NCBI GenBank assembly: GCA_030835085.1
Contig: JAUQWQ010000022.1
Span: 1-48,340, forward strand
DNA: 48,340 nt
DNA from: Ignavibacteria bacterium
Lineage (GTDB): Bacteria; Bacteroidota; Ignavibacteria; Tepidaquicellales; OLB5
Direction of reading: 5' to 3'
This document shows positions 2,618-19,844 of this stretch, one piece after another. Position numbers and translations under genes: made by a program. The notes under the pieces were generated by a model that saw only the letters and a program-made list of their open reading frames with translations, was not told the origin of the DNA and made no database searches. The first letter of the stretch is position 1. Every line of letters starts with the position of its first letter.

Positions 2618-5569
2618 TCATTTCTCAATCAAACTTATACTTTTTTTGCCATCCATCAGTATCTTTACCGGTGCGGGTAAATGCAGGTGAACAAAATGTT
2701 CTGTTGTATTTTCGGGCGTTATCGATCTCAGGTACTCCCAGTCAATAAAATCCCTGCCATTAGATTGGTGTACTGTCAGGTAACCGATATTCATTGATGT
2801 GATATTATGGAAAAAATGTGAGCCAAGAGAGGCATCAACCTTAAAATCATCAAGATCAGTCTCAACAATTATCTTCGCATTGCTGATCTGCGGCCACTGC
2901 ACGGGAATACCTAGCCATCGGTCACGGGTTCCCCACCTGCCCGGTGCAATGAGGATATAATTCCTTTTGGCAAGCCTCATTAATACATTCAGCTTTTCAA
3001 CTTCTGTCGCCATTTGCTCAGTTTTTGCTTTATTGAAGAGTTCAGGTACGGCGTAAATGATATCAGTAATATTTTCAACTTTTCCGTTACCCATACCGCG
3101 TTCGGTATAAAGTATCAGGTTCTCTTTCACTATATCTTCTTCATCAATCGTAAAAAACTCTCCGCTTCTTATAAGAGGTTTAAGCTGCAATATATAAAAG
3201 CCCGGATTATTCTCATCCAGGTTGACCGCAAATTCAATTTCAACCGGAAGACCCATTGAACTTTCGATGATTTCAAGCAGCCTGCTTAATACTTTGGCAA
3301 AGGGAAAAAGATCATATTTTAAAATTCCGGCAAAGTTCACTATCCTGGGTCCCTTATGGTTTAAGCCGACTTTTACTTTATTATCCTGCGGGTCGTAGAC
3401 AGAAACAATATCATCAAGTACACCTAGTGATTCAGCGTCAGATATTTCAACCCTTTTAAGAGTGATATCTTCACCCTGTGCAAGATTTGATATCCCCCGT
3501 TCCATATCTATTACATAGAAGAATGACTGTGAATCACGAAGCTGCGTTTCAGGGTCAACAATATCTATCTTCGGGTACTTTGGGCAGAAACGAAAAGCTT
3601 TTTCGGCATCTATAACATATTTGCCCAATCCCACCGCAGAAATACATATACCATCTTCCGGCTTAAACCTTGCTATAGGGTAAAAATTGTATGATTGCGC
3701 AACCCCTGATATATGGGGAAAAAATACATTTTCATATTTTATGCCGACAATTTCCTGCAGTACAACTGCCATCCGTTCATCATCTATTCTGTAATTAATG
3801 GCTTCAAAATAACTGCGGGCATGTTTGGAGTATATTGATGCATATACAAGCTTTATTGCATCAGTCAGATTCTTAAGCCTTTCGTTAAGGTTTTCGTGGT
3901 TGTTAGGTATAAGGAAAGTCTGGTAAATACCGGAAAAAGATTCGGATATTGAATCTTCAAACATTCCCGATGACCTTACAGCAATGGGAGATGTGGTTTT
4001 ATCAAGGTATACTCTTAGTTTTGAGACCAGCTCTTCACTGAGCGGCTTTGACAGAAATATCTGTTTTACTTCATCAAAATCGTGATCCATATGGATCCCA
4101 TAGAGATCATGTTTGTTTATGAAATTCTCATATTCTTCCGCCCCAATAATAGCCGTTTTAGGTATTTTGATTGAAACATTTTCTATACCGCTGAAGAGTT
4201 CTTTTGTCTGCAGAAGCGTATTAATGAAGGCTATTCCCCTTCCTTTGCCGCCGAAAGAGCCTGGGGCAAGCCTTAAGATCAGGTTATCTTCCTCAAGGAA
4301 TTTTGGACTGAAATCAACAACACCGCCTCGTGAAACTGTGGTTTCAACATTTTTTGTTGTTTTAATAATGTAATCTCTTATCGCATCTGCACCGGAAAAA
4401 TCGGTAACTTTCAATTTTTCCAGATGCTCGGCGATCTGTATTTCTCCCCTTGCCATCAGCCATGCAGAAAAATGGTTCCTCCCGCCGTGATAAAGCACAG
4501 ATTCAGCGGGTACCTTTTTCAGCTGATGTTTGAATTCATCTATCGAGGAAGCTCTTGCTATCTCTTCTCCTGAACGGTCACGGAAAATAAAATCCCCGAA
4601 TCCAAGGTTATCAAGTATAAAATCACGCAGGTCATCTGATAAAGTTTCGGAATTTTTATTGATGAAAGTAGCATCATTCAATATTGCCGTTTCTGAGAAA
4701 GTGCTCTCTGATGACTGTAGTAAAAATGGCAGATCACTGTCATCCGATTTTATCTTTTGCAGTAGTTTTATCCCTGCTTCCTCGTTTATCTTACCTTCAA
4801 AAGGGAACTTAACATCAGATATTACGCATAGTATGGTATTTTTGAATTTTTCGTAAAGCTCTACAGCCTCTTCATAACTGACAGCAAGCAGCACTTTAGG
4901 ACGGGCACGCATTCGCAGTATTTTTTTCACACCGTCAAGATTATCTTTTGTAATAAGCCGCTGTGTCTGTTTTATGATCTCAGTATACAGAATCGGCAGG
5001 TAGCGTGAATAATACCTGATCGAGTTTTCAACCAGCAATATTACCCTCACCAGACCTACTTCCGTATCGTTTGTACAGTTTTTTTTATCTTCAAAATATT
5101 TTATAATGGCAAGAAATATCTTGGTTTCGCGGTTCCAGACAAATACTTTTTCAAAAATATCTATTTTATCACGCATCTGGTTCACAAGGATTATATCACT
5201 GTTATCATACAGTAAAAGGAATATTGGCAGATCAGGTTTAATGTTTTTTATCCTCAATGCAAGCTCAAAAGGTGAAAGGTTTTGAGTGCGCATTGTAATT
5301 ATCACGAAATCAAAATATTTCTGGCTTAAAAGGGTTTCTGCTTCCTTTTCATCTGATGCGTTAGTTATCCTGGGTACATTGGATAGATCGAGCCCGTAAT
5401 ACTCACCGAATATTTTTTCGTTAAGCTTTTCTTCCTCTTCAAGTATAAATGCATCATATAAAGAAGTTACAAGCAGTATCTCACGCACGTGGAATTGCGC
5501 CAGATCATGATATATTTCATTATCACTTTTGTGTTTCTTGAAAATCGATTTAAGTTCTTCCTGCAGCAT
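2618..5569 (-). CDS. Receiver-like / PPDK-type ATP-grasp (PEP/pyruvate-binding domain) protein
   Basis: 983 residues. The first ~340 residues contain two receiver-like modules; the second has a candidate phospho-acceptor Asp in V-I-S-D-V-K-F-P. The rest is a PPDK/PEP-synthase N-terminal ATP-grasp: glycine loop G-G-K-G-R-G at residues 440-445 and V-R-S-S...E-D...S-F-S-G from residue 531. A further module carries A-P-G-R-W-G-T-R (around 877) and G-S-H-F-F (His 918). The phosphohistidine swivel domain and PEP-binding TIM barrel of true PEP synthases are absent, so it cannot run the complete PEP synthase reaction. In the family, ATP-grasp proteins bind ATP and transfer phosphate; the acceptor here is unknown. 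Start ATG at 5569; the next upstream gene ends 45 nt before, so co-transcription with it is possible. A paralogue lies at 25034-28213. Confidence 0.85.
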   Translation of the reverse strand: MLQEELKSIFKKHKSDNEIYHDLAQFHVREILLVTSLYDAFILEEEEKLNEKIFGEYYGLDLSNVPRITNASDEKEAETLLSQKYFDFVIITMRTQNLSPFELALRIKNIKPDLPIFLLLYDNSDIILVNQMRDKIDIFEKVFVWNRETKIFLAIIKYFEDKKNCTNDTEVGLVRVILLVENSIRYYSRYLPILYTEIIKQTQRLITKDNLDGVKKILRMRARPKVLLAVSYEEAVELYEKFKNTILCVISDVKFPFEGKINEEAGIKLLQKIKSDDSDLPFLLQSSESTFSETAILNDATFINKNSETLSDDLRDFILDNLGFGDFIFRDRSGEEIARASSIDEFKHQLKKVPAESVLYHGGRNHFSAWLMARGEIQIAEHLEKLKVTDFSGADAIRDYIIKTTKNVETTVSRGGVVDFSPKFLEEDNLILRLAPGSFGGKGRGIAFINTLLQTKELFSGIENVSIKIPKTAIIGAEEYENFINKHDLYGIHMDHDFDEVKQIFLSKPLSEELVSKLRVYLDKTTSPIAVRSSGMFEDSISESFSGIYQTFLIPNNHENLNERLKNLTDAIKLVYASIYSKHARSYFEAINYRIDDERMAVVLQEIVGIKYENVFFPHISGVAQSYNFYPIARFKPEDGICISAVGLGKYVIDAEKAFRFCPKYPKIDIVDPETQLRDSQSFFYVIDMERGISNLAQGEDITLKRVEISDAESLGVLDDIVSVYDPQDNKVKVGLNHKGPRIVNFAGILKYDLFPFAKVLSRLLEIIESSMGLPVEIEFAVNLDENNPGFYILQLKPLIRSGEFFTIDEEDIVKENLILYTERGMGNGKVENITDIIYAVPELFNKAKTEQMATEVEKLNVLMRLAKRNYILIAPGRWGTRDRWLGIPVQWPQISNAKIIVETDLDDFKVDASLGSHFFHNITSMNIGYLTVHQSNGRDFIDWEYLRSITPENTTEHFVHLHLPAPVKILMDGKKSISLIEK

Positions 5570-6983: not shown

Positions 6984-8149
6984 CAGTGACTTATCCTTAT
7001 AACTCTTTTCTTTTTAATCGCCTCATCTATTGCACTTGCAACTTTTATGTCTTCCAGGGCAACTGATGTGCTGCTTTCAGGTTTTGTGTTCTTTGTGACC
7101 GTATCGTAGAACGCATTCCATTGCCCGCCGGAACCCGGATGCATAAATTCATCCTGATATTCATCATAGAACACCAGGTTTGTATCGGCCGGAGGGTAAC
7201 TCATCGGATATTTCCATACTACCGGATATTTCTTATCATCTGAAAAAATGTATATACTCGAAGGGTTCCCTTTCCATTTACGTTTTGAAGCGTTGTTTGC
7301 TTTTACAAAAGTCTCAAAGTGAGCAACTAGCTTGGCTTTTTCCAGCTGTATTATCCAGCGCGATTCACGAGCATGCGGACTGACATAAGAAACAGTGATT
7401 GATGCTTTTACACCATTCTTATATTTGATTATCGCCATTAAGTTATCATTTGAATCACCTTTAAGCTTTACTGAACTGTTGAATGCACGAACCTTACTGT
7501 ATGTTTTGGGATTGATAAGATACTGCCCCCCGAATGCAGCAGTTTCAGCCGGTTTAGCACCGGCAAACCGGTTAAACAAATTTATCTGGTGTACAGCCTT
7601 ATCGTGTATAATTGCATCGCCGTTTACAGCAGTGTTGTTGTAACGCCAAATGCAGGGATCAAACGGCCTGGTTTCCAGCCAGTTCATCCAGAGTACTCTT
7701 CCGTATTTCCCGGAATCAATTATCCTGCACAGCTCTTTATAGAAGGAACTGTATCTTAATACCATCCCAACCTGTACAAACCTGCCGTATTTTTTTTCTG
7801 CAGCAATAATACGCTTTACATCTTTAGGCAGTACAGCTGCCGGTTTTTCAAGAAATACATGTTTACCGCGTTTGAGCGCCTGTAATGTATAATTTACATG
7901 TACAGATGTACTGGTTAAAACCGCGACAGCATCAATCTGCGGATCTCTTAAAACATCTTCGGCATTATCTGAATATTTTATACCGCGGGAACCGGTAATA
8001 ATTTTTTTGGTGAGTTTAAATGCATTCTTATCTGTATCAAAGATCGATACGATTTTGAATTTATCGGAAAGGTTTAATAATGAAGGCAGGTGCATGGATC
8101 TGAAAACTGAGCCGCAGCCAATAATTCCTATGTTTACCTTCTTCTTCAT
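6983..8149 (-). CDS. Gfo/Idh/MocA family oxidoreductase
   Basis: 388 residues with the family's two domains. The N-terminal Rossmann fold shows G-I-I-G-C-G-S-V-F-R around residue 8 and the nucleotide-binding and catalytic E-K-P motif after H-V-F-L. The C-terminal alpha/beta domain carries a conserved H-D-K-A-V-H-Q-I-N segment with the catalytic-type histidine. Such enzymes use NAD(P) to oxidise or reduce sugars and sugar derivatives in the cytoplasm; the substrate cannot be read from sequence. It has no signal peptide. Start ATG at 8149 gives a normal N-terminus. It is transcribed in the same direction as the muramidase gene 105 nt downstream, so an amino-sugar substrate from peptidoglycan turnover is conceivable, but this is inference from adjacency only. 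Confidence 0.85.
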   Translation of the reverse strand: MKKKVNIGIIGCGSVFRSMHLPSLLNLSDKFKIVSIFDTDKNAFKLTKKIITGSRGIKYSDNAEDVLRDPQIDAVAVLTSTSVHVNYTLQALKRGKHVFLEKPAAVLPKDVKRIIAAEKKYGRFVQVGMVLRYSSFYKELCRIIDSGKYGRVLWMNWLETRPFDPCIWRYNNTAVNGDAIIHDKAVHQINLFNRFAGAKPAETAAFGGQYLINPKTYSKVRAFNSSVKLKGDSNDNLMAIIKYKNGVKASITVSYVSPHARESRWIIQLEKAKLVAHFETFVKANNASKRKWKGNPSSIYIFSDDKKYPVVWKYPMSYPPADTNLVFYDEYQDEFMHPGSGGQWNAFYDTVTKNTKPESSTSVALEDIKVASAIDEAIKKKRVIRISH

Positions 8150-8321
8150 CTATAAATTTATGCATAATTCATATTAAATTATACAGATTTCTGTTTTCAG
8201 CAATTTTACAGGAATTCAGAACAATTATGGATTACTTTCAGGAGAGTTGTACATAAAAAACAAACCGGCTGTTTAAGGATTTTCGTCCAATTCACAACCG
8301 GCTTAAACCAATCTATTTATA

Positions 8322-8553
8322 TGTAAGGGAAAAACTTTTTCTTCATAAGGGTAAAACTAATCTGTTCATAAGGGTATCTAAAAATCTCTCATAAGGGTCC
8401 TTCATATTACATAAGGGTATTACTACTGCTTTTCACAAGGGTTATATTTACTGCTCACATAAGGGTTGATCTTACTGCTATCACAAGGGTTATATTTACT
8501 GCCTGCATAAGGGTTAAATTATAAAACCGGTGAAACTTGAAAATCATAAGGGT
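8322..8553. repeat. Spaced direct-repeat array of CATAAGGGT
   Basis: Within the gene-free stretch 8150-8760, nine copies of CAYAAGGGT start at 8344, 8367, 8390, 8410, 8434, 8458, 8482, 8506 and 8545. A degenerate copy (TGTAAGGGA) starts at 8322. Spacings are 23, 23, 20, 24, 24, 24, 24 and 39 nt. Four central units also share TTACTGC in the spacer, so part of the array is a degenerate 24-bp tandem repeat. All copies point the same way. No long reading frame runs through it. Function unknown; it lies 207-440 nt upstream of the rhodanese-like gene. The rest of the gap, 8150-8321 and 8554-8760, is plain AT-rich sequence apart from a direct repeat of ACCGGCT near 8263 and 8297. Confidence 0.85.
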
Positions 8554-8760
8554 TTATCTAATTAACTATTTTGAATCATCTAATGAACTATGTAACTAAT
8601 CTTTCTATACAAACATAACACTTTATGTACATGCTGAAATATAGTAATATGTGTTAAAGGTTTGTAGTAAAATTAATTACATTCAGGTATGATAAATTTT
8701 GCTTAAATTTTTGAATTTTAAGCGATTTTTAAGTATTTTTGAATAAAGGAGATCAGGATA

Positions 8761-9216
8761 ATGAAAAAATCACCGCTTCACAGTATGAATTTCCTGTCAA
8801 TTCTGAGTCACAAAATATTACTGATTCCGGTTGTGATCTCTTATTTTTTGTTATTTCAGGGATGTGAATACCTGTTTCCGTCTCTTAGAAGTGATAAAAT
8901 TACAGTTGAAGAAGCAGCTGTTTTTCTCGAAAAAAATAAAGGTGAAGTTGATGTTGTTTTAATGGATATCAGAACGAAGCGTGAATATGATTCACTACGT
9001 CTTGAAAATTCTGTTAATATTGATTTTTCTTTGCCTGATTTTCCGGATATGATAAACAAGCTTGACAAAGAAAAAAGATATATCCTCATAGACCAAAACG
9101 GCAGGAAAAGCGCAATGGCTTTTGAATTAATGAAAGAACTTAGATTCCCCAGGATACACTATATAATTGGCGGAATTAATGAATGGACCAGGAACAATTA
9201 CCCGGTTCAGAAATGA
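8761..9216 (+). CDS. Rhodanese-like lipoprotein lacking the catalytic cysteine
   Basis: 151 residues. A basic N-terminus and hydrophobic run end in a lipobox L-L-F-Q-G-C at about residue 35, predicting lipid anchoring to the envelope. The rest is a rhodanese fold: V-D-V-V-L-M-D-I-R-T-K-R-E-Y-D is the CDC25/rhodanese N-motif and I-G-G-I-N-E-W the C-terminal motif. The active-site loop that normally begins with Cys reads L-I-D-Q-N-G-R-K-S-A, with Asp in the cysteine position. The protein is therefore not a sulfurtransferase; inactive rhodanese domains usually serve as binding modules. A GGAGA 8 nt before the ATG supports the start. It is followed after 156 nt by a two-component system on the same strand and preceded by the CATAAGGGT array. 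Confidence 0.8.
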   Translation: MKKSPLHSMNFLSILSHKILLIPVVISYFLLFQGCEYLFPSLRSDKITVEEAAVFLEKNKGEVDVVLMDIRTKREYDSLRLENSVNIDFSLPDFPDMINKLDKEKRYILIDQNGRKSAMAFELMKELRFPRIHYIIGGINEWTRNNYPVQK

Positions 9217-9372: not shown

Positions 9373-10452
9373 TTGATACAGGATTATATAAACAAGGCAG
9401 GAACATTCACAATACTGCTGGCTGGACTTTTGCTGCTTTCTGCTGTAGCTCTGACGGACTTTTTTACCACAAAAGAGATTTCATTTTCAATTTTCTACCT
9501 TATTCCTATAGCTTTTGTTACCTGGAATACAAAACGTTTGTATGGTATTTTATTCTCGTTTATTTGCGCTTTTTTATGGATATACATGGATACAGATGGA
9601 TTTAAATTAGTTACAAATTATGCCCTTCACTTTTGGAGCACAATTGTGAGATTCGGTTTCTTTATAATAGTGACTATCCTGATCTCAAAACTGAAGATTC
9701 TTAAAGTAGACCAGGAAAACATCATTACCCAAAGAACATCTGAACTTCTGAATGAAATTAGCGATCATGAAAAATCAAAAGCCGAACTTCTTCAGAAAAG
9801 CAGGCAGTTAAGAGAGCTTAACAAAAAAATTGAGACAATAAAAGAAGATCAGAATGTACAGATAGCCCGTGAAATACATGATGAGCTTGGACAATCATTA
9901 ACTGCCGTTAATCTTGAAGTAAACTGGGTTGCCAAAAAGCATGCGGATAATCCTGATATAGTTGCAAAAATGTATGAAATTTCAAAAATAGTTGATAATA
10001 CCATTGTTACTGTCAGAAAGATATCTTCTGATCTCAGGCCAAGGCTCCTTGATCAGCTCGGGATTCTGCCTGCTATTGAGAGCCTGTTAAAAGAATTTGT
10101 GAAAAGGACCAAAATTGAAACGGAATTTAATATGCCTGAAATTAAAGTAAACCTTGAAAATTCCGCATCAATTATTGTGTACAGGATACTTCAGGAGGCA
10201 CTTACAAATATCGCAAGACACTCAAAATGTACACGGGTGGAGGTTTATATAAACATAGAAAATGACATGTTGAAATTGTCAATTATAGATAACGGTACAG
10301 GATTCAGCTTTAAAAATAAAATTAACGAAACAAAATCATTAGGTTTAATTGGCATGCAGGAACGCGCAGAAATGCTTCGCGGTACACTTGAAATTAATAC
10401 TGTCGAAAACATCGGAACAGAAATAATACTCTATGTTCCACTGAATAATTAA
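9373..10452 (+). CDS. Membrane sensor histidine kinase, NarL/LiaS (HisKA_3) type
   Basis: 359 residues. Residues ~10-105 form four hydrophobic segments with the I-S-F-S-I-F-Y-L-I-P-I sequence seen in integral-membrane sensor domains, followed by a coiled-coil linker. The dimerisation and phospho-acceptor helix reads Q-I-A-R-E-I-H-D-E-L-G-Q-S-L with His at residue 169. The HATPase domain has L-Q-E-A-L-T-N-I-A-R-H-S (N-box), D-N-G-T-G-F and G-L-I-G-M-Q-E-R. All catalytic elements are present. The start codon is TTG at 9373; nearby ATGs at 9357 and 9362 are out of frame. The response regulator follows 15 nt after the stop, so the two form a phosphorelay. No periplasmic sensory domain is visible, so the stimulus is probably membrane-borne. 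Confidence 0.88.
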   Translation: MIQDYINKAGTFTILLAGLLLLSAVALTDFFTTKEISFSIFYLIPIAFVTWNTKRLYGILFSFICAFLWIYMDTDGFKLVTNYALHFWSTIVRFGFFIIVTILISKLKILKVDQENIITQRTSELLNEISDHEKSKAELLQKSRQLRELNKKIETIKEDQNVQIAREIHDELGQSLTAVNLEVNWVAKKHADNPDIVAKMYEISKIVDNTIVTVRKISSDLRPRLLDQLGILPAIESLLKEFVKRTKIETEFNMPEIKVNLENSASIIVYRILQEALTNIARHSKCTRVEVYINIENDMLKLSIIDNGTGFSFKNKINETKSLGLIGMQERAEMLRGTLEINTVENIGTEIILYVPLNN

Positions 10453-10467
10453 CTATTTAACATTATT

Positions 10468-11106
10468 ATGATAAAAATTTTAATAGCAGATGACCATTCC
10501 GTAGTGAGACGCGGAATAAAACAAATTCTCTCGGATGAATCAGATATGCAGGTACTTGGTGAAGCATCTAACAGCGATGAGATCTTTGCCCAGCTTGATA
10601 AACAAAAGTGGGACCTTCTTATACTTGATATTACAATGCCCGGCAAAAGCGGTCTTGACTGTTTAATAGAAATACGACAGAAAGAACCTGATCTGAAAAT
10701 ATTGATCCTTTCAATGCATCCTGAGGAAGAAATTGCATTGCGGGCTATAAAAACCGGGGCAGACGGCTACCTGAATAAAGATAGCGTGCCCGGAGAGCTG
10801 ATAAGAGCAATTAAAAAAGTTGTTGCAGGCGGTAAGTATATTAGCAGTACGCTGGCCGAAACATTAATATTTTCTGTGAACAACCAGAGCAATAAACTGC
10901 CTCACGAAATTCTTTCAGAAAGGGAGTTCCAGGTATTATGTTTGCTTGCTTCAGGGAATTCATTGACTCAAATTGCCGATAAATTTTCATTAAGCGTAAA
11001 AACAATAAGCACATACCGCTCTAGAATACTTGAAAAAATGGACCTGAAGTCAAATGTTGATATTACACATTATGCGATCAAACATAAGCTTGTTGTTAAC
11101 GGATAA
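10468..11106 (+). CDS. NarL/FixJ-family response regulator
   Basis: 212 residues. The receiver domain shows acidic D8-D9, phospho-acceptor Asp54 in L-I-L-D-I-T-M-P, the switch Ser in I-L-S-M-H and the conserved Lys in Y-L-N-K-D. The C-terminal LuxR-type helix-turn-helix begins at L-S-E-R-E-F-Q-V-L and includes I-A-D-K-F-S-L-S-V-K-T-I-S-T-Y. It is the partner of the kinase immediately upstream (15 nt gap, probably one transcript). It is expected to dimerise on phosphorylation and bind DNA. Targets are unknown; the neighbouring giant secreted protein and the CATAAGGGT array are the closest candidates, without direct evidence. Confidence 0.9.
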   Translation: MIKILIADDHSVVRRGIKQILSDESDMQVLGEASNSDEIFAQLDKQKWDLLILDITMPGKSGLDCLIEIRQKEPDLKILILSMHPEEEIALRAIKTGADGYLNKDSVPGELIRAIKKVVAGGKYISSTLAETLIFSVNNQSNKLPHEILSEREFQVLCLLASGNSLTQIADKFSLSVKTISTYRSRILEKMDLKSNVDITHYAIKHKLVVNG

Positions 11107-11666: not shown

Positions 11667-14600
11667 ATGAATAAAAAAATGTCATTTATAATAATCATTA
11701 TTGCTGCTCTATTTGCCCAGTTATCTTTCGGGCAGAATAACAACAGCAGTAATTATGATGCTGCGAAAGCTAATTTCTGGAAACAGTATTTGCAGTATAA
11801 AGAGAACCTGAAATTAAATCCCTACACTGTAAAACCTGTGGACCCTGCCGGTCTTTTTGAAATTGATGCGAATAACCAGGTTGTATTTATTGATAAAAGC
11901 ATAAACAATCAGCAGCAGGTTCACTCAAATGCGCCATGGATAAACGGAGAGGAACAGGATCTTGTAAGTATTGATTATACCTGGTCTCAAACTACCGGTA
12001 CTTATACTCCCGTTACAGGAACGGTACTTGGAACAAATGCAAATGATGATAATACCTTCGCGGCCACGCCTATAGGTTTCAATTTTATATACGAAGGAAT
12101 AACCTATACAACAGTTGATATTAACACAAACGGTTATATCAAATTCGGAACAATTTCAGGAAGTCATTACCCGCAGGTTTTATCACTTCAGCCAAATATA
12201 TTCGCAGCGTGCAATAATGATCTAAGAGCCAACAATACTACCAGCACACTTCAGTATTTTACAACAGGAAGTGTTGGCAGCAGAACAATGACTATACAGT
12301 GGGCTAATTATGGTTTTTATAATGCAGGTTATGATGGAAGCGATATTTCATTCCAGATTATTTTAAGCGAAACTTCAAATACTATTCAGGTAGTTTACGG
12401 CGCTTACCCGACTATAGTTTTTGTACCATACACAACACAGGTTGGTATGAATACAACGACACTTGATTTTAATAATCGTACAACAACTACAGACTGGGCT
12501 GCAACAACAGCAGGCGGTACAAATCTTGCCGGGTTAACACTATCCGGCACTATTAAACCTTCTTCCGGATTAACATACACGTGGACACCTTCGGTAATGT
12601 CATATTCATCCAGTACAACTGCGCAGCTCCTTTCAGGGCAGAACATTATAGTACCATCCAACAATAATCAGGTTCTTCAGATACAGGTTGTTACAACAGG
12701 TTCCAACAGCCCGTTTGCAGCAACATCATTTAACCTTGGAACCAACGGTTCAACAAATCCTGTAACAGATATTTCCAATGCAAAACTGTATTATACAGGT
12801 ACATCAGCGGTTTTTTCAACTGCTGTACTTTATGGCTCCACTGCATCACCAAACGGTACATTTACAATAAACGGCTCACAGTCTTTGCCATCAGGCACAA
12901 GTTACTTCTGGCTGGTCTATGATGTCCCGTCATCAGGAATCAACGGGAATGTAGTTGATGCACAGTGCAATTCAATTACGATCAACTCAATTGCACAGAT
13001 ACCTTCAGTAATTGCTCCGGCAGGCAGCAGGCCTTTGCTGGTACCAAACCCGCTTTGCGGGGTTAAAAGTATCCCCGGAGACTATCCGACAATAACCGCA
13101 GCTATTAACGATCTGAATTTAAACGGAGTTGGATGCAACGGTGTTACCTTTAACGTAGCAGCAAACTTCAGAGAAAATAACACCGGTAACCTGCAGATCA
13201 GCTGTCTTACTTCACCACCAAACTCAACAAGACCGATAGTTTTCCAGAAATCCGGCGCAGGAGCAAATCCTTTAATTACTTCAGGACCGGGAGTTTCAAC
13301 AACTCTTGACGGAATTATTATATTAAACGGTGTAAGTTATGTTACATTTGATGGAATTGACCTTATGGATAGTACAGGCAACACAACAACAACAACACAG
13401 ATGGAATGGGGTTATGCTGTTCTTAAACAGAACGGAACCACAGGCAGTTCTAACAACGTAATTAAGAACTGTACGATAACATTGCAGAAATCAAATGTAA
13501 ATTCAGTTGGTATTTACACAGGCAATCACACACCGCTTGCAACAACTGCAATCACTGTTACATCCTTAAACGGAGCATCATCCTATAATAAATACTTAAG
13601 CAATACAATTCAGAACTGCTTTATAGGTATGCAGATACAGGGATTCGCTGCAGCTACTCCGTTTGACCTATATGACCAGGGTAACGAAGTTGGTACCATT
13701 GGCGGAGGAAGAAGCCAGATATTGAATTTTGGTAACGGTACTTCAGCAACTTCAGCATACGGTATCAGAGCAATAAACCAGAACAATATTAAAATTTACA
13801 ACACATATATTAACAGTACCGGCGGTGCCGATAACAACTCAACACTGAACGGAATTTTCCTTTCAACAGGTACAAACTCAAACTTTGATATTTATAACGA
13901 TACAATTACCGTAGTCAGCGGAGCAACAACATCCCAGCTAGTTGGTATAACCACTGATATGGGAGCTACAGGTAACGGCAATACAATTAATATCTACAAT
14001 AACGTTATTCAAAACTGTTTATACCCAACTGCTACATCAGGTGAGTTCAGAGGCATTGCAAATAACGCATCAACAGCAACAAACATAAATATTTATAATA
14101 ACAAAGTTATTAACAACACACTCCCCGGAACAGGAGTATTTTCAGGACTCTATCTTACAGCCAGTACTTCAACTAACATGATAAACGAAAATGTTTATAA
14201 TAATGTTGTATCCGGAAACACGAAAACAGGTACTTCGGGTATTATGTATATGTGTTACGTGAACGGAAGTGTTCAGAATAAAAGATTCTATAATAACCAG
14301 CTGCTTAATAACTCAAACTCATTAAGCTCCGGCGCTACTTACGGTTACTATAATAACGGCGTTGATTTTAATGAATATGTATACGGTAATACAATTTCAG
14401 GCAATACCGGCGGTACATCAACTTTTTACTGCCTCAATGCAACATCAGGTTCAGGAACAAATAAATATATATACAACAACACTATAAACGGGAATTCCGG
14501 CGGTAACCAGGTTGGCGGTATTTTTCATAATCTGACAACTGACGCCCAGATATATAATAACAATATTTACAATCTTTCAACAACTAATGCAGCTGCATTA

Positions 14601-17600
14601 GCACCAGCAGTTTTCGGGATAGGTACTGGTACCACAGGCGTTAACACTCTTTTGTATAACAACTTTATTTCAGATCTGAGAGCGCCAAATGCAACAGGTA
14701 TCACTTCTATTTACGGAATGTGGCTTTTAAGTACAGGTACAATTAACGCATACTATAATACTATTTATCTGAATGCGTCAGGTTCTTCGACGACATTCGG
14801 TACAGCAGGCGTAAATTATACAAACGCCGCAGCAACAGTACCTGTATTTGATTTCAGGAATAATATAGTAGTGAACAATTCAACACCCGGCGCAACAGGC
14901 AGAACAACTGCTTTGACTAGAACAACAGCATCGCTGGTGAATTATAATCCGCTCTCAGGTAATAACTGCTTATATGCAGGTGCACCATCTGTAACAAACC
15001 TGATATATTTTGACGGAACCAATTCTGACCAGACATTACAGGCATTCAAGAACAGGGTCGGACCCAGGGAACAGGCATCATTTTCACAGATCCCTCCGTT
15101 TATAAATATCGGGGCAACTCCGTATGATCTGCATATTCAGACCGGAACCGGAACCCAGGTTGAAAAAGGCGGACAGCCGGTATCAGTTACTGTTGACTAC
15201 GACGGCGTTACAAGGGATGGATCTTTTCCGGATGTAGGGGCTGATGAAGTTGCAGGTACAATGACAGATAATGCTTCACCGCTTATTACTTACACACTAC
15301 TTGGTAACTCAGACGGAACATCACCAAGGAATGTTACCGGCATTTCGATAACAGACCCTTCCGGTGTAAATACAACTGCAGGTACAAAACCCAGGATGTA
15401 TTATAAAAAATCGACAAATACCAATACATATAACGATAATACAAATGCAACTGACGGATGGAAATACGTCGAAGCTTCAAATGCTTCCTCACCATTCAGT
15501 TTTGCAATGGATTATTCGCTGGTTAACGGCGGTATAGCTGCAGGAAACATAATGCAGTATTTTGTTACTGCACAGGATCTTAGCGGTACACCTTTTGTGG
15601 GACTTAACAACGGAGCATTTACAGTACAGCCTGCAAGTGTTAACCTGGCAGCAGCAAACTTTCCGCTGAACGGAACGATCAACCAGTTTACAATCACAAC
15701 TTCAGCCGGACTTTCAGGTACTATTAACGTTGGTTCAACAGAAACTATTACATCGTTAACCAATACCGGCGGTGCTTTCGCATTAATTAACGGAAGCAGC
15801 TTATCAGGAAACGTAACACTGAATATCACTTCAGATCTTACCGCTGAGCTTGGAACCGTTGGATTAAACCAGTGGTCTGAGATCGGTGCAGGTAATTATA
15901 CTGTAAGCATTGTATCAAGCGCTGCAACAATAAGGACAATTTCAGGTACTCTCGCTTCAAACGGCCTTGTTAGGCTGGATGGTGCCGACAGGGTAATGTT
16001 TGACGGCCGCTTTGGCGGTACAGGTCAATTCCTGAGATTCAGGAACCTGAGCACTTCAGGAAGCTCTGTGTTACTACTGAATGACGCCAAGAACAACACA
16101 GTCAGAAACTGTATCCTTGAAGGAAACAGCATCTCAACTTCAGGCAACGGTGCAGGCGTTATTACAATAGGAACTACAACGTTAACCGACGGTAATGATA
16201 ATAATACAATAACATTCAACGAAGTAAGGGATAGAAGCGATGCAGCGGGCTTCCCTGCTTTGGGAATTTTTTCAGCAGGCACCACAACAACACTGCAGCA
16301 GTATAATAATAACTGCGTGATCTCTAACAACAATGTACATGACTGCTATCTTGATGGCGGTACGGTACAGGGCGGCATATACGCTTCAGTTGGTACCACC
16401 GGCTTTAACATAGATTCAAACAGTGTTTACATGGCGACCACAAGATCAATTGTGACCACAGGTACAACCATGTTTGGTATCGGTATCAGCAATTCATCTA
16501 CACTTGCAATAAACGGCGGATTCAATATCAGGAATAATTACATCGGCGGTTCTGCGCCATTATGTGCCGGAACACCATTTACTCTTGGGGTTGCTTCAAC
16601 AACGCCAATTTATGGATTCAGGGCAATACAGATAGTAACAGGACAGATTCCGAACAGCATACAGGGTAATGTTATCGCAAATTATGATCTTACTGTAAAT
16701 GGCGGGGCTTCTAACTTCTTATTTGCAGGTATTGCAGGCGGTAACGGTATCCATAATGTTGGTACTGTGAACGGAAATACTATCGGTTCGGGAACAGGTA
16801 CAGATAATATTAAAATAACAATTAACGGTGCAACAGGTGCTACCATAGTAAGAGGAATTTCACTTGGATTCTTCACATCTACAGTATGGGGCGGTAATGT
16901 GGATAACAACACAGTTGGTTCTATTACAATAGGCGGACCAATTACCGGTACAGGTACAACCTGCGATTTCATTTCTATCGGTGCATCAGCAGGCTGGCAG
17001 AATGATTTTTCTGTTTCAAACAATACCGTGGGCAGCCAAACTACTGCAAACAGTATTAAATTTACCTACACATCAGCATCTACAAATATGCGGGGAATTT
17101 CTATATTCCCTGTACAGAGTGTAAATGCAACAGTGAATAATAACAAAGTGATGAACATTACCGAACAGAGCAGCTCTACCGGTTCAGTATTCTTCAGTAT
17201 GCTTATGAACTCAGGTGCTGCTCCGTTAAAATACAATATCACAAACAATACTGTTGCAAACCTCAGCTCAGCAATGACATCAGCTTCAACAAATGCACTG
17301 AATGGTATATACCTGATAACCAGTTACAATAATGTTAATATAGCAGGTAACCTGGTTCAAAATTTATCATTAACCAATACAGGTGCTTTCAATTCCGGTG
17401 TTATTGGTATGCTAACACAGACCAATAACTATATGAGCGGAACAATTACAAAGAACAAAGTCAGCGGTTTAACCAATCAATTGACAGGTTCCTTCCCTTC
17501 TGTAATGGGCATGTGGATGATAAACGGTGCAGATTGGAATGTTTCGAACAATATGTTCACTTTAACAAACGGTGAAACTACTCTGGATCTTAATAACAGC

Positions 17601-19844
17601 GATCTCAGGGTTCCCGTTGAAAAAGTTGACTATACTGTTAAAAATGTACTTCCCGGTTTTGAAGTACCATATAACTATGTACCAACAAATGAAAAATTTG
17701 AAAATGTACCCGCTGAAACGCCATCAATGTCAGAATTCATGATCAGCAGCTCATCATTAAAACCTAATGTTTCAGATAAGAAGACTGATGTTAAGGAATC
17801 AAGGAAAAAGAATGAAAAAACAGAAATAGACGCATTTACTACCGGTATGCCGATATATGGAATCTATGATCAGACTTCAGGCGGTACTAAATCTTTAAAT
17901 TATAATTCTATCTATATTGGCGGTTCGAATACCGGTACTGCTTTCAGCAGTTACTGCTATTATAAACTAGGTGCAGATATTGCATTTTTAAGGAACAACC
18001 TCTTCTTTAACGCCAGAACAGGAACAGGCGTTCATTATGCAATAGCTAATGACGCTGCCACTCCTTCAAACGGGTGGAATAACACTGCTTCTAACTACAA
18101 TGTTTTTGTTACTTCTGACAGCACTGCTATCGGTTCATGGGGACTTGTAAACAGAAGCATAGATACATGGAGATCAAGCTCACTTGGTGATAACCAAAGC
18201 TGGTATGCAAAAACTACACAGGTAACAGCTTCAAGTCTGTTTACAGATATATCAACCGGTGACCTTCATATAAACTCATCCAATTCCGCGGCATGGCTAA
18301 TAAGCGGAAAAGGACTTGCAATTGCAGGATTTAACCAGGATTACGACGGTAATACAAGGTCAGTTACAATATCCGGCGGCGTAACAGATATTGGCGCTGA
18401 TGAATTTACTGCAACACCTCCTGGCAATCCAACTGCGCTTCAATCAGCTGCACCAAGCTCTGGCGGAACTACAGACTACATATTGTACGGCAGAAAAATT
18501 GCAACAATAAACTGGGGCACAGGAGGCGTCTATCCTTCTTCAGTAAATATAAATTATTTCTCAGGTGTAAATCCTGTTGCGCCAAATGTTACAAACCCGA
18601 ACAGGACAAGCAATTCATACTGGACAGCGGCACCGACAGGTGTATTAAGCGGAACAACATATGATATTACATGGTATTTTGGTGAGAATGAAACATATAC
18701 AATAACATCACCATCTACAAACGTATTGATGGCTAAGAACGATAACACTTTCTGGATGACCTATCCGCAGGGTACCGGCACTTACCAGAGTGAATTTACA
18801 CCATCTGCATACAGTGTTAAATTAAGAGGAATGTTCAGATTCTCTTCATTTACATTAAGTGATGCTGCTTTACCGGCTGAGTTTCCGGCGACGCCTTTAA
18901 ATAATTCCATAGTTGCAGTATCAAACCCGACACTTGTATGGAGTAAATCTGCCATAGCCAGTACATACAGGGTACAGCTGTCAACAGATTCTTTATTTAA
19001 TACAATAGTATTTAATGATTCAACTGTAACTGATACAACTAGACAGGTTACAGGTTTACTGAACAATACAAATTATTGGTGGAGAGTCAACGGCAAGAAC
19101 GGCACCGGAACGGGCGGCTGGTCGCAGGTATTTAAATTTACTTGCGTCACTGTTCTTCCTCCAGCTGTAGTTAACTTATCGGTTATTCCGGGCGGATTTT
19201 ATAATACCGGAACAGGAAGACTGAATATGAGAGATACAATCAGTGTATATCTTATTGATTCAACATCCTGCTTAAGTGTGGACTCAGCCAAAGGTGTACT
19301 TGACTCAGTTAACTTTACGACCAATATCAGTTTTTCAAATGCGAATACCGGAAATTATTACCTGATAGTGTATCACAGGAACCATATAGCGGCTGCTACA
19401 AGGTTCAGGACAACAGTAACCAGGGGTTCATCTGTAGGTTATGATTTCACAACAGATTCAACGAAAGCATTCGGGTTCAATATGATCAAAGTATCCAGCT
19501 CACCTGTAAGATGGGCACTGATACCGGGTGATGCAAATCGTGACGGATTTGTAGACGGTTTGGATCAAACCATATGGATTGGCCAAAACGGACTGGATGG
19601 ATATCTTGTATCTGATTTCAACGGTGATAGCTTTATAGACGGTCTTGACCAGACGTTATGGATAATTTACAATGGTTACAGCTCATTCCTGCCATGCGGG
19701 TTTACCCTTGATCCTGTTACCCAGCATGTAATTGTTAACACCGCAGATTACGATGCTAAGAAAAGCAACAGGGTACTTTATGAAATGAGAAAGAAAGAAA
19801 TTCCTTCAGAATATAATGTGAAACAGAATAACAGCAGGAAATAA
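11667..19844 (+). CDS. Giant secreted beta-helix protein with dockerin-like C-terminus
   Basis: 2725 residues. A signal peptide (hydrophobic I-I-I-I-I-A-A-L-F-A, cleavage after F-G-Q) is followed by a beta-sandwich region (~30-300) and a domain resembling the N-terminal domain of BNR neuraminidases (~315-460). Then come two long right-handed beta-helix blocks with repeated I-Y-N-N-x-I units, each ending in D-V/I-G-A-D-E (residues ~1189 and ~2241). A charged, repeat-free insert of about 85 residues interrupts the second block near 1970-2055. A fibronectin III-like domain spans ~2400-2495. The C-terminus has two calcium-loop repeats, D-A-N-R-D-G-F-V-D at 2622 and D-F-N-G-D-S-F-I-D at 2650, arranged like a dockerin. 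No T9SS sorting domain is present. Possible roles are adhesion or polysaccharide binding; no catalytic motif was recognised. Confidence 0.85.
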   Translation: MNKKMSFIIIIIAALFAQLSFGQNNNSSNYDAAKANFWKQYLQYKENLKLNPYTVKPVDPAGLFEIDANNQVVFIDKSINNQQQVHSNAPWINGEEQDLVSIDYTWSQTTGTYTPVTGTVLGTNANDDNTFAATPIGFNFIYEGITYTTVDINTNGYIKFGTISGSHYPQVLSLQPNIFAACNNDLRANNTTSTLQYFTTGSVGSRTMTIQWANYGFYNAGYDGSDISFQIILSETSNTIQVVYGAYPTIVFVPYTTQVGMNTTTLDFNNRTTTTDWAATTAGGTNLAGLTLSGTIKPSSGLTYTWTPSVMSYSSSTTAQLLSGQNIIVPSNNNQVLQIQVVTTGSNSPFAATSFNLGTNGSTNPVTDISNAKLYYTGTSAVFSTAVLYGSTASPNGTFTINGSQSLPSGTSYFWLVYDVPSSGINGNVVDAQCNSITINSIAQIPSVIAPAGSRPLLVPNPLCGVKSIPGDYPTITAAINDLNLNGVGCNGVTFNVAANFRENNTGNLQISCLTSPPNSTRPIVFQKSGAGANPLITSGPGVSTTLDGIIILNGVSYVTFDGIDLMDSTGNTTTTTQMEWGYAVLKQNGTTGSSNNVIKNCTITLQKSNVNSVGIYTGNHTPLATTAITVTSLNGASSYNKYLSNTIQNCFIGMQIQGFAAATPFDLYDQGNEVGTIGGGRSQILNFGNGTSATSAYGIRAINQNNIKIYNTYINSTGGADNNSTLNGIFLSTGTNSNFDIYNDTITVVSGATTSQLVGITTDMGATGNGNTINIYNNVIQNCLYPTATSGEFRGIANNASTATNINIYNNKVINNTLPGTGVFSGLYLTASTSTNMINENVYNNVVSGNTKTGTSGIMYMCYVNGSVQNKRFYNNQLLNNSNSLSSGATYGYYNNGVDFNEYVYGNTISGNTGGTSTFYCLNATSGSGTNKYIYNNTINGNSGGNQVGGIFHNLTTDAQIYNNNIYNLSTTNAAALAPAVFGIGTGTTGVNTLLYNNFISDLRAPNATGITSIYGMWLLSTGTINAYYNTIYLNASGSSTTFGTAGVNYTNAAATVPVFDFRNNIVVNNSTPGATGRTTALTRTTASLVNYNPLSGNNCLYAGAPSVTNLIYFDGTNSDQTLQAFKNRVGPREQASFSQIPPFINIGATPYDLHIQTGTGTQVEKGGQPVSVTVDYDGVTRDGSFPDVGADEVAGTMTDNASPLITYTLLGNSDGTSPRNVTGISITDPSGVNTTAGTKPRMYYKKSTNTNTYNDNTNATDGWKYVEASNASSPFSFAMDYSLVNGGIAAGNIMQYFVTAQDLSGTPFVGLNNGAFTVQPASVNLAAANFPLNGTINQFTITTSAGLSGTINVGSTETITSLTNTGGAFALINGSSLSGNVTLNITSDLTAELGTVGLNQWSEIGAGNYTVSIVSSAATIRTISGTLASNGLVRLDGADRVMFDGRFGGTGQFLRFRNLSTSGSSVLLLNDAKNNTVRNCILEGNSISTSGNGAGVITIGTTTLTDGNDNNTITFNEVRDRSDAAGFPALGIFSAGTTTTLQQYNNNCVISNNNVHDCYLDGGTVQGGIYASVGTTGFNIDSNSVYMATTRSIVTTGTTMFGIGISNSSTLAINGGFNIRNNYIGGSAPLCAGTPFTLGVASTTPIYGFRAIQIVTGQIPNSIQGNVIANYDLTVNGGASNFLFAGIAGGNGIHNVGTVNGNTIGSGTGTDNIKITINGATGATIVRGISLGFFTSTVWGGNVDNNTVGSITIGGPITGTGTTCDFISIGASAGWQNDFSVSNNTVGSQTTANSIKFTYTSASTNMRGISIFPVQSVNATVNNNKVMNITEQSSSTGSVFFSMLMNSGAAPLKYNITNNTVANLSSAMTSASTNALNGIYLITSYNNVNIAGNLVQNLSLTNTGAFNSGVIGMLTQTNNYMSGTITKNKVSGLTNQLTGSFPSVMGMWMINGADWNVSNNMFTLTNGETTLDLNNSDLRVPVEKVDYTVKNVLPGFEVPYNYVPTNEKFENVPAETPSMSEFMISSSSLKPNVSDKKTDVKESRKKNEKTEIDAFTTGMPIYGIYDQTSGGTKSLNYNSIYIGGSNTGTAFSSYCYYKLGADIAFLRNNLFFNARTGTGVHYAIANDAATPSNGWNNTASNYNVFVTSDSTAIGSWGLVNRSIDTWRSSSLGDNQSWYAKTTQVTASSLFTDISTGDLHINSSNSAAWLISGKGLAIAGFNQDYDGNTRSVTISGGVTDIGADEFTATPPGNPTALQSAAPSSGGTTDYILYGRKIATINWGTGGVYPSSVNINYFSGVNPVAPNVTNPNRTSNSYWTAAPTGVLSGTTYDITWYFGENETYTITSPSTNVLMAKNDNTFWMTYPQGTGTYQSEFTPSAYSVKLRGMFRFSSFTLSDAALPAEFPATPLNNSIVAVSNPTLVWSKSAIASTYRVQLSTDSLFNTIVFNDSTVTDTTRQVTGLLNNTNYWWRVNGKNGTGTGGWSQVFKFTCVTVLPPAVVNLSVIPGGFYNTGTGRLNMRDTISVYLIDSTSCLSVDSAKGVLDSVNFTTNISFSNANTGNYYLIVYHRNHIAAATRFRTTVTRGSSVGYDFTTDSTKAFGFNMIKVSSSPVRWALIPGDANRDGFVDGLDQTIWIGQNGLDGYLVSDFNGDSFIDGLDQTLWIIYNGYSSFLPCGFTLDPVTQHVIVNTADYDAKKSNRVLYEMRKKEIPSEYNVKQNNSRK

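Follow-up and report, generated by a model that had tools for sequence, protein, structure and literature searches.

The repeat array and its surroundings

An array of 9-bp repeats lay upstream of, and divergent from, a rhodanese–histidine kinase–response regulator operon in the window (the whole stretch of DNA analysed, 48,340 nt). The following features were recognized.

8255–8606, minus strand: predicted non-coding RNA gene of ~350 nt; promoter and terminator conserved in 12 orthologues
8255–8304, minus strand: predicted intrinsic terminator, AAGCCGGTTGT ... ACAGCCGGTTT and then GTTTTTT; fold of −19.8 kcal/mol, with covariation
8322–8330, minus strand: decayed end copy of the repeat, TGTAAGGGA on the plus and TCCCTTACA on the minus strand; CCCTT retained at the equivalent position in most orthologues
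8344–8553, minus strand: array of nine perfect ACCCTTRTG (CAYAAGGGT on the plus strand), from a copy search; 93 copies across 12 orthologues
8556–8568, minus strand: conserved RNA leader TAGTTAATTAGAT, directly ahead of the first motif, from orthologue alignments
8610–8617, minus strand: −7 element TATGTTTG; TTAnnTTTGT invariant in 12 orthologues
8663–8681, minus strand: 19-bp dyad TGTAATTAATTTTACTACA, candidate response-regulator site; consensus TGTAAY-N7-RYTACA
8710–8741, plus strand: TTTG ... TATTTTTG, read from the sequence, probably the rhodanese operon's own promoter; conserved in most genus mates
8761–9216, plus strand: divergent lipoprotein-like protein with a rhodanese domain (PF00581); neighbour in all orthologous loci
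9373–10452, plus strand: histidine kinase (HisKA_3, Pfam), syntenic among relatives
10468–11106, plus strand: LuxR/NarL-type response regulator; best NCBIfam model UvrY/SirA/GacA

On the plus strand, the nine perfect copies of CAYAAGGGT started at 8344, 8367, 8390, 8410, 8434, 8458, 8482, 8506 and 8545, with start-to-start distances of 23, 23, 20, 24, 24, 24, 24 and 39. This recount agreed with the nine 9-mers, one degenerate copy and spacings given in an earlier note on this DNA. By chance 0.58 copies were expected in the whole window, and nine were reached in none of 100 dinucleotide shuffles. The meaningful reading of the repeat is ACCCTTRTG, on the minus strand. A similarity search against phage records gave no match, and neither did Rfam covariance models against 8000–9000, up to E = 1.

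The 4.05-Mb host genome contained no second CAYAAGGGT array. Outside the array, CATAAGGGT was not over-represented (21 copies vs 47 for the reversed control); nearly all these copies lay within ORFs, and a conservation check of the 21 found two intragenic sites common to the host and contig G009:C2. The earlier note had taken a random genome-wide frequency of the 9-mer as grounds against a function; such a frequency was indeed found outside the array, but a function of the array is not thereby refuted. As a separate observation, CATAAGGGT was about half as common as its reversed control elsewhere in the host genome, and the motif is possibly avoided there.

Like CRISPR arrays, the array had short repeats at regular spacing. 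However, CRISPR repeats are roughly 21 nt or more and their spacers are acquired, whereas here the unit was 9 nt and the spacers, mostly 11–15 nt, were orthologous between species and drifting; no cas-like domain was found among the nearby proteins scanned. The array was thus not a CRISPR, as the earlier note had said.

Two other ORFs of the window were unusual. Positions 2618–5569 (minus strand) encoded a 983-aa protein that matched DUF5752 weakly; its receiver-like region and PPDK_N ATP-binding domain are an uncommon pairing. At 11667–19844, downstream of the two-component genes, was a 2725-aa ORF, Asn/Thr/Gly-rich and apparently secreted.

A predicted RNA gene on the minus strand

To the left of the array (plus strand), an inverted repeat around CCGG was conserved in all 12 sequences. 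On the minus strand it read as a GC-rich hairpin followed by the U-tract GTTTTTT, as expected of an intrinsic terminator. Across the 12 genomes 92.4% of the cells of the stem were paired, vs 21–52% in slid controls, and ten cells were altered on both sides, vs 3.3 in shuffled alignments, with two-sided changes at four pairs. The covariation was 0.264 vs 0.179 shuffled, a value reached in none of 500 shuffles. A simple terminator scan (loops of at most 8 only) detected no terminator, and a simple sigma-70 promoter scan was uninformative. On the other side of the array, the invariant TTAnnTTTGT resembled the −7 box consensus of Bacteroidota, TAnnTTTG (PMC7366714), and the dyad lay 44–45 bp upstream of this box.

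Since the covarying terminator and the conserved promoter bound the array, a minus-strand RNA gene was placed at about 8606–8255, its 5′ end estimated by means of the −7 box and its 3′ end set at the U-tract. This predicted gene is well supported by the comparison of sequences. Lying between these two elements, the array would therefore be transcribed away from the rhodanese and two-component genes. The region, described earlier as gene-free, thus probably holds an RNA gene.

Alternatively, array and terminator together might be a cis-acting leader, attenuating the minus-strand GFO/IDH/MocA oxidoreductase and NamZ genes. Genes in the same direction begin at 8149, and an oxidoreductase or NamZ gene came next in relatives. 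However, the next gene was not constant (mostly the oxidoreductase gene, but NamZ immediately in G011 and G013), unrelated sequence intervened in G008 and G010, a conserved TATAATTT...TTTATGCATAAATTTAT just ahead of the oxidoreductase gene resembled a promoter of its own, and related RNAs elsewhere had different neighbours. We consider such a leader very unlikely and prefer a separate RNA gene.

Distribution of the array

Orthologous loci were found via the rhodanese gene, and the upstream sequence was then read. The array was present in 10 of the 11 testable genus mates (G001, G002, G003, G005, G006, G008, G009, G010, G011 and G012) and in one genome of a sister genus (G013, about four copies); those of G006 and G011 were reduced. 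All orthologous arrays were divergent from the rhodanese gene, mostly with the kinase and regulator genes next. In G004 the array is lost: the response regulator was kept (77% identical in the part present), with one doubtful promoter match. The locus was absent from G007 (64% complete). Absence of the array from relatives with the same neighbourhood, which the earlier note had put forward as evidence against its reading, was therefore seen in G004 alone and not in relatives generally.

In a scan of 148 genomes, paired motifs were restricted to the host's genus, with one array per genome. When 84,980 species were scanned for three ACCCTTRTG motifs, 75 loci were found, five of them in genus mates, with divergent spacers. 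Most others were tandem repeats of near-identical units; the few with divergent spacers (e.g. L082 and L128) had just three or four motifs each. Conserved arrays in other phyla were rejected, because these matches were mostly ordinary tandem repeats. The literature searched reported no such RNA for Ignavibacteria.

Constraint on the motif and properties of the predicted RNA

Among the 93 copies in the 12 orthologues, the core CCCUURUG was strongly kept: C2 and T5 never varied, T6 was kept in 92 copies, C4 in 91, C3 in 86, T8 in 85 and G9 in 80, and position 7 was A in 78 and G in 14. Flanking bases were unconstrained, except that A was preferred after the motif. Motifs changed less than spacers between G000 (the host) and G005 (1/56 vs 33/204, p 0.003), between G000 and G012 (6/66 vs 56/206, p 0.002) and between G009 and G002 (p 0.02); in the diverged pair G010 and G006 they were no slower than spacers (p 1.0).

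A functionless, decaying tandem repeat, expanded here by chance, would account for neighbouring units having similar spacers in G008 and G000, and this similarity means that units do duplicate. However, the core was kept over 93 copies in 12 genomes while the spacers diverged, and most other loci of the motif scan, unlike the array in the window, consisted of near-identical units. We regard chance expansion as extremely improbable; the same contrast between core and spacers bears out the proposal that the motif is under selection.

Spacing over the orthologues was 22.2 ± 1.9 nt (extremes 17–49 nt). The spacings fell evenly in the three reading frames (21/25/25), indicating, as previously claimed, that the array is non-coding and arguing against a repeat protein.

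The single orientation, this near-regular spacing and the adjacent regulator genes would suit a site acting as DNA, either a cooperative transcription-factor operator or an iteron or segregation site, both suggested in the earlier note. However, a predicted transcription unit, its promoter and terminator both conserved, enclosed the array, the terminator covaried as RNA, the spacing varied widely among orthologues, and there was a single array in each genome. An operator for the rhodanese and two-component genes was disfavoured because the array is transcribed away from them and the likely regulator site is the separate dyad at 8663–8681; an iteron was disfavoured because no replication or partition gene was present among the neighbouring proteins scanned (metabolic, rhodanese and two-component). 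A DNA-level role thus appears very unlikely indeed.

The RNA, our preferred reading, was predicted to be weakly structured. That of the window folded worse than its shuffles (z +2.0); over the 12 orthologous RNAs the mean z was +0.8, eight being positive and 4 of 12 not less folded than shuffles. Predicted accessibility was only slightly higher for motifs than for spacers (about 0.5 vs 0.45), and the motif complement (AAGGG/TAAGG) was absent within 11 of the 12 transcripts. These properties are those of a predicted string of exposed sites, each with a footprint of ~22 nt. Among the roles listed earlier, a binding platform for a repeat-recognizing protein or RNA came closest.

The promoter and the two-component system

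The response regulator matched the UvrY/SirA/GacA NCBIfam model at 184.7 bits (E 1.8e-54), under the equivalog cut-off of 280. It was 75–93% identical among genus mates (parts compared), the most conserved of the three proteins of the operon, and wherever the contig or locus of a genus mate extended that far, the gene order was rhodanese–kinase–regulator. The rsmY RNA is controlled by GacA and has TGTAAGCATTCTCTTACA as its upstream activating sequence (PMC4353343), and the dyad TGTAATTAATTTTACTACA is similar to this GacA box; likewise, the consensus TGTAAY-N7-RYTACA is similar to the GacA-type site TGTAAG-N6-CTTACA, although the family match of the regulator is below cut-off. Since the regulator is nearest to UvrY/SirA/GacA and the dyad resembles a GacA box, the layout copies that of Gac-Csr/Rsm. 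The array RNA is likely under the control of the neighbouring two-component system, with the adjacent response regulator probably the protein that binds the dyad, as judged from proximity and family.

A search for the composite promoter (dyad plus −7 box), made independently of the array, gave 38 sites vs one for the reversed control in 14 genomes (G000–G013), and one match vs five for the reversed control in 45 other relatives. The dyad alone was not enriched as a pattern; the signal therefore resides in the fixed spacing between dyad and −7 box. The host genome had four composite promoters: those of the array RNA and of a second RNA (on C103, see below), and those on C66 and C122.

The C66 promoter resembled a G012 site located ahead of a response-regulator-like gene. 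Composite promoters preceded the start of such a gene (e.g. MPYNMLIVEDSDLVV...) at G012:C8:109629 and on G006:C14, G008:C63 and G013:C44 (loci L317, L311, L312 and L305), which suggests a regulator cascade.

Shorter RNAs under the same promoter

With the promoter/leader model, shorter RNAs were found in the same genomes. Three of them (G010:C160, L189; G006:C5, L185; and G013:C12) had two motifs or variants each and their own terminators, and L189 and L185 lay directly downstream of a second histidine-kinase gene. The dyad of the G010 paralogue, TGTAATAGAAACTATTACA, was a palindrome perfect except at its centre.

Another class, INPF, was found on G000:C103, G012:C8, G002:C13, G005:C292, G001:C397, G009:C2, G008:C54 and G003:C311 (host locus L184, G000:C103:4759–4905, minus strand; orthologues L183, L186, L188 and L190–L193). 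Each had a dyad promoter, its own terminator and a mini-ORF of about 14–18 codons ending in NPF-stop (e.g. MKHEHLHFARYIINPF). The last codons of the mini-ORF and the 3′ flank read AAYCCCTTCTGATTTTTACC. In the string CCCTTC, both CCC and TTC were unchanged at synonymous sites, and a second INPF copy in G002 retained the string outside the mini-ORF. Because of these two observations, the CCCUU core of the INPF RNA may be active at the RNA level too.

Search for a ligand and targets

CsrA (PF02599) was found in none of 25 genomes, with positive controls in E. coli, B. subtilis and T. maritima, and Hfq (PF17209) in none of 15 genomes, with five positive control genomes. As neither was found, another factor would bind the array RNA. 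RRM proteins were not found in the host genome; one (L343, G007:C64) was seen in G007 only among the genus members searched.

At the start codons of the 1,235 genes of contig G009:C2, neither the motif nor its complement showed enrichment of its 6-mers. This contig had no other motif cluster of note beyond the array. Structural RNAs were considered as pairing partners, but none of its tRNAs contained the full motif complement (it carried no 16S). Thus G009:C2 gave no target set backing titration; with no enriched sites found, the targets may be few or may carry a shorter motif.

These searches also bear on another possibility, a protein-free riboregulator whose repeated seed would base-pair either with another sRNA or with mRNA sites resembling CAYAAGGGU. 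The core changes seen most often, G for A at position 7 and U for C at positions 3 and 4, would still allow pairing with an unchanging U or G, and known sRNA-binding proteins are missing, as in Bacteroides, for which protein-independent sRNAs have been discussed (PMC7366714). One copy of the complement fell in the leader (L150) of a gene that follows a sigma factor; this candidate was rejected, being conserved in no relative examined. Against pairing, AAGGGT and TAAGGG were not notably enriched at starts, CATAAGGGT was rarer than its reversed control genome-wide, C2 never became U, though pairing would tolerate U, and the co-regulated INPF RNA repeated the same-sense motif, not its complement. 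We judge base pairing to be unlikely.

A proposed decoy RNA

We think it moderately probable that the array specifies a two-component-controlled decoy RNA of ~350 nt, whose ACCCUURUG sites titrate an RNA-binding factor. The minus-strand RNA would be made divergently from the rhodanese–histidine kinase–response regulator operon, the GacA-like regulator activating it by binding the dyad at a fixed distance from the −7 box. Along the weakly structured RNA, the ACCCUURUG site would be displayed about nine times, at intervals of roughly 22 nt. Each site would probably hold one copy of the factor, and synthesis of the RNA would draw the factor off its other targets; titration is the step that we infer. 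The shorter RNAs with one or two motifs, made from the same type of promoter, would serve as paralogues.

The closest known systems are CsrB/CsrC and RsmX/Y/Z, the Csr/Rsm decoy RNAs under GacS/GacA, which share with the array RNA a repeat-bearing sRNA with an intrinsic terminator, redundant paralogous RNAs, a TGTAA...TTACA promoter dyad and a linked GacA-like response regulator. The Csr/Rsm motif, however, is GGA in hairpin loops, whereas ACCCUURUG is a unit without GGA in a weakly structured body. Csr/Rsm needs CsrA, which was found in none of the 25 genomes searched, the −7 box of the array RNA is of the Bacteroidota type, and its gene, unlike those of Csr/Rsm, adjoins the two-component operon. 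Transcription of CrcZ and CrcY is activated by the CbrA/CbrB two-component system. These sequestering RNAs, with repeated motifs and Hfq/Crc as ligand (PMC12533007), have a similar two-component-driven design; their CA motif AAnAAnAA and Hfq/Crc differ from the C/U-rich motif of the array RNA and a group in which Hfq was not found. Bacteroides, in a related phylum-level group, has unstructured AU-rich sRNAs, a TAnnTTTG promoter and no obvious Hfq or ProQ (PMC7366714), resembling the array RNA in promoter, low structure and lack of Hfq; no Bacteroides sRNA with an array of one repeated motif was described in the literature searched. Thus the design of a decoy RNA under a two-component system is already known; the motif and lineage are new, and so would be the ligand.

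More tentatively, and with rather less than even confidence, the locus may be part of a separately evolved Gac/Csr-like decoy circuit of Ignavibacteriota, consisting of a GacA-type regulator, redundant RNAs with 1–10 ACCCUURUG sites and an RNA-binding global regulator. Bacteroidota and Ignavibacteriota are expected to use sRNA regulation, although Bacteroides lacks an obvious Hfq or ProQ homologue and neither CsrA nor Hfq was found in the genomes searched here. With about nine copies of a single 9-nt site, the array RNA would be a near-ideal bait for such a factor, if one exists. If the reading is true, it suggests that the design of a decoy RNA made by a two-component system had more than one origin, the RNA motif differing between them.
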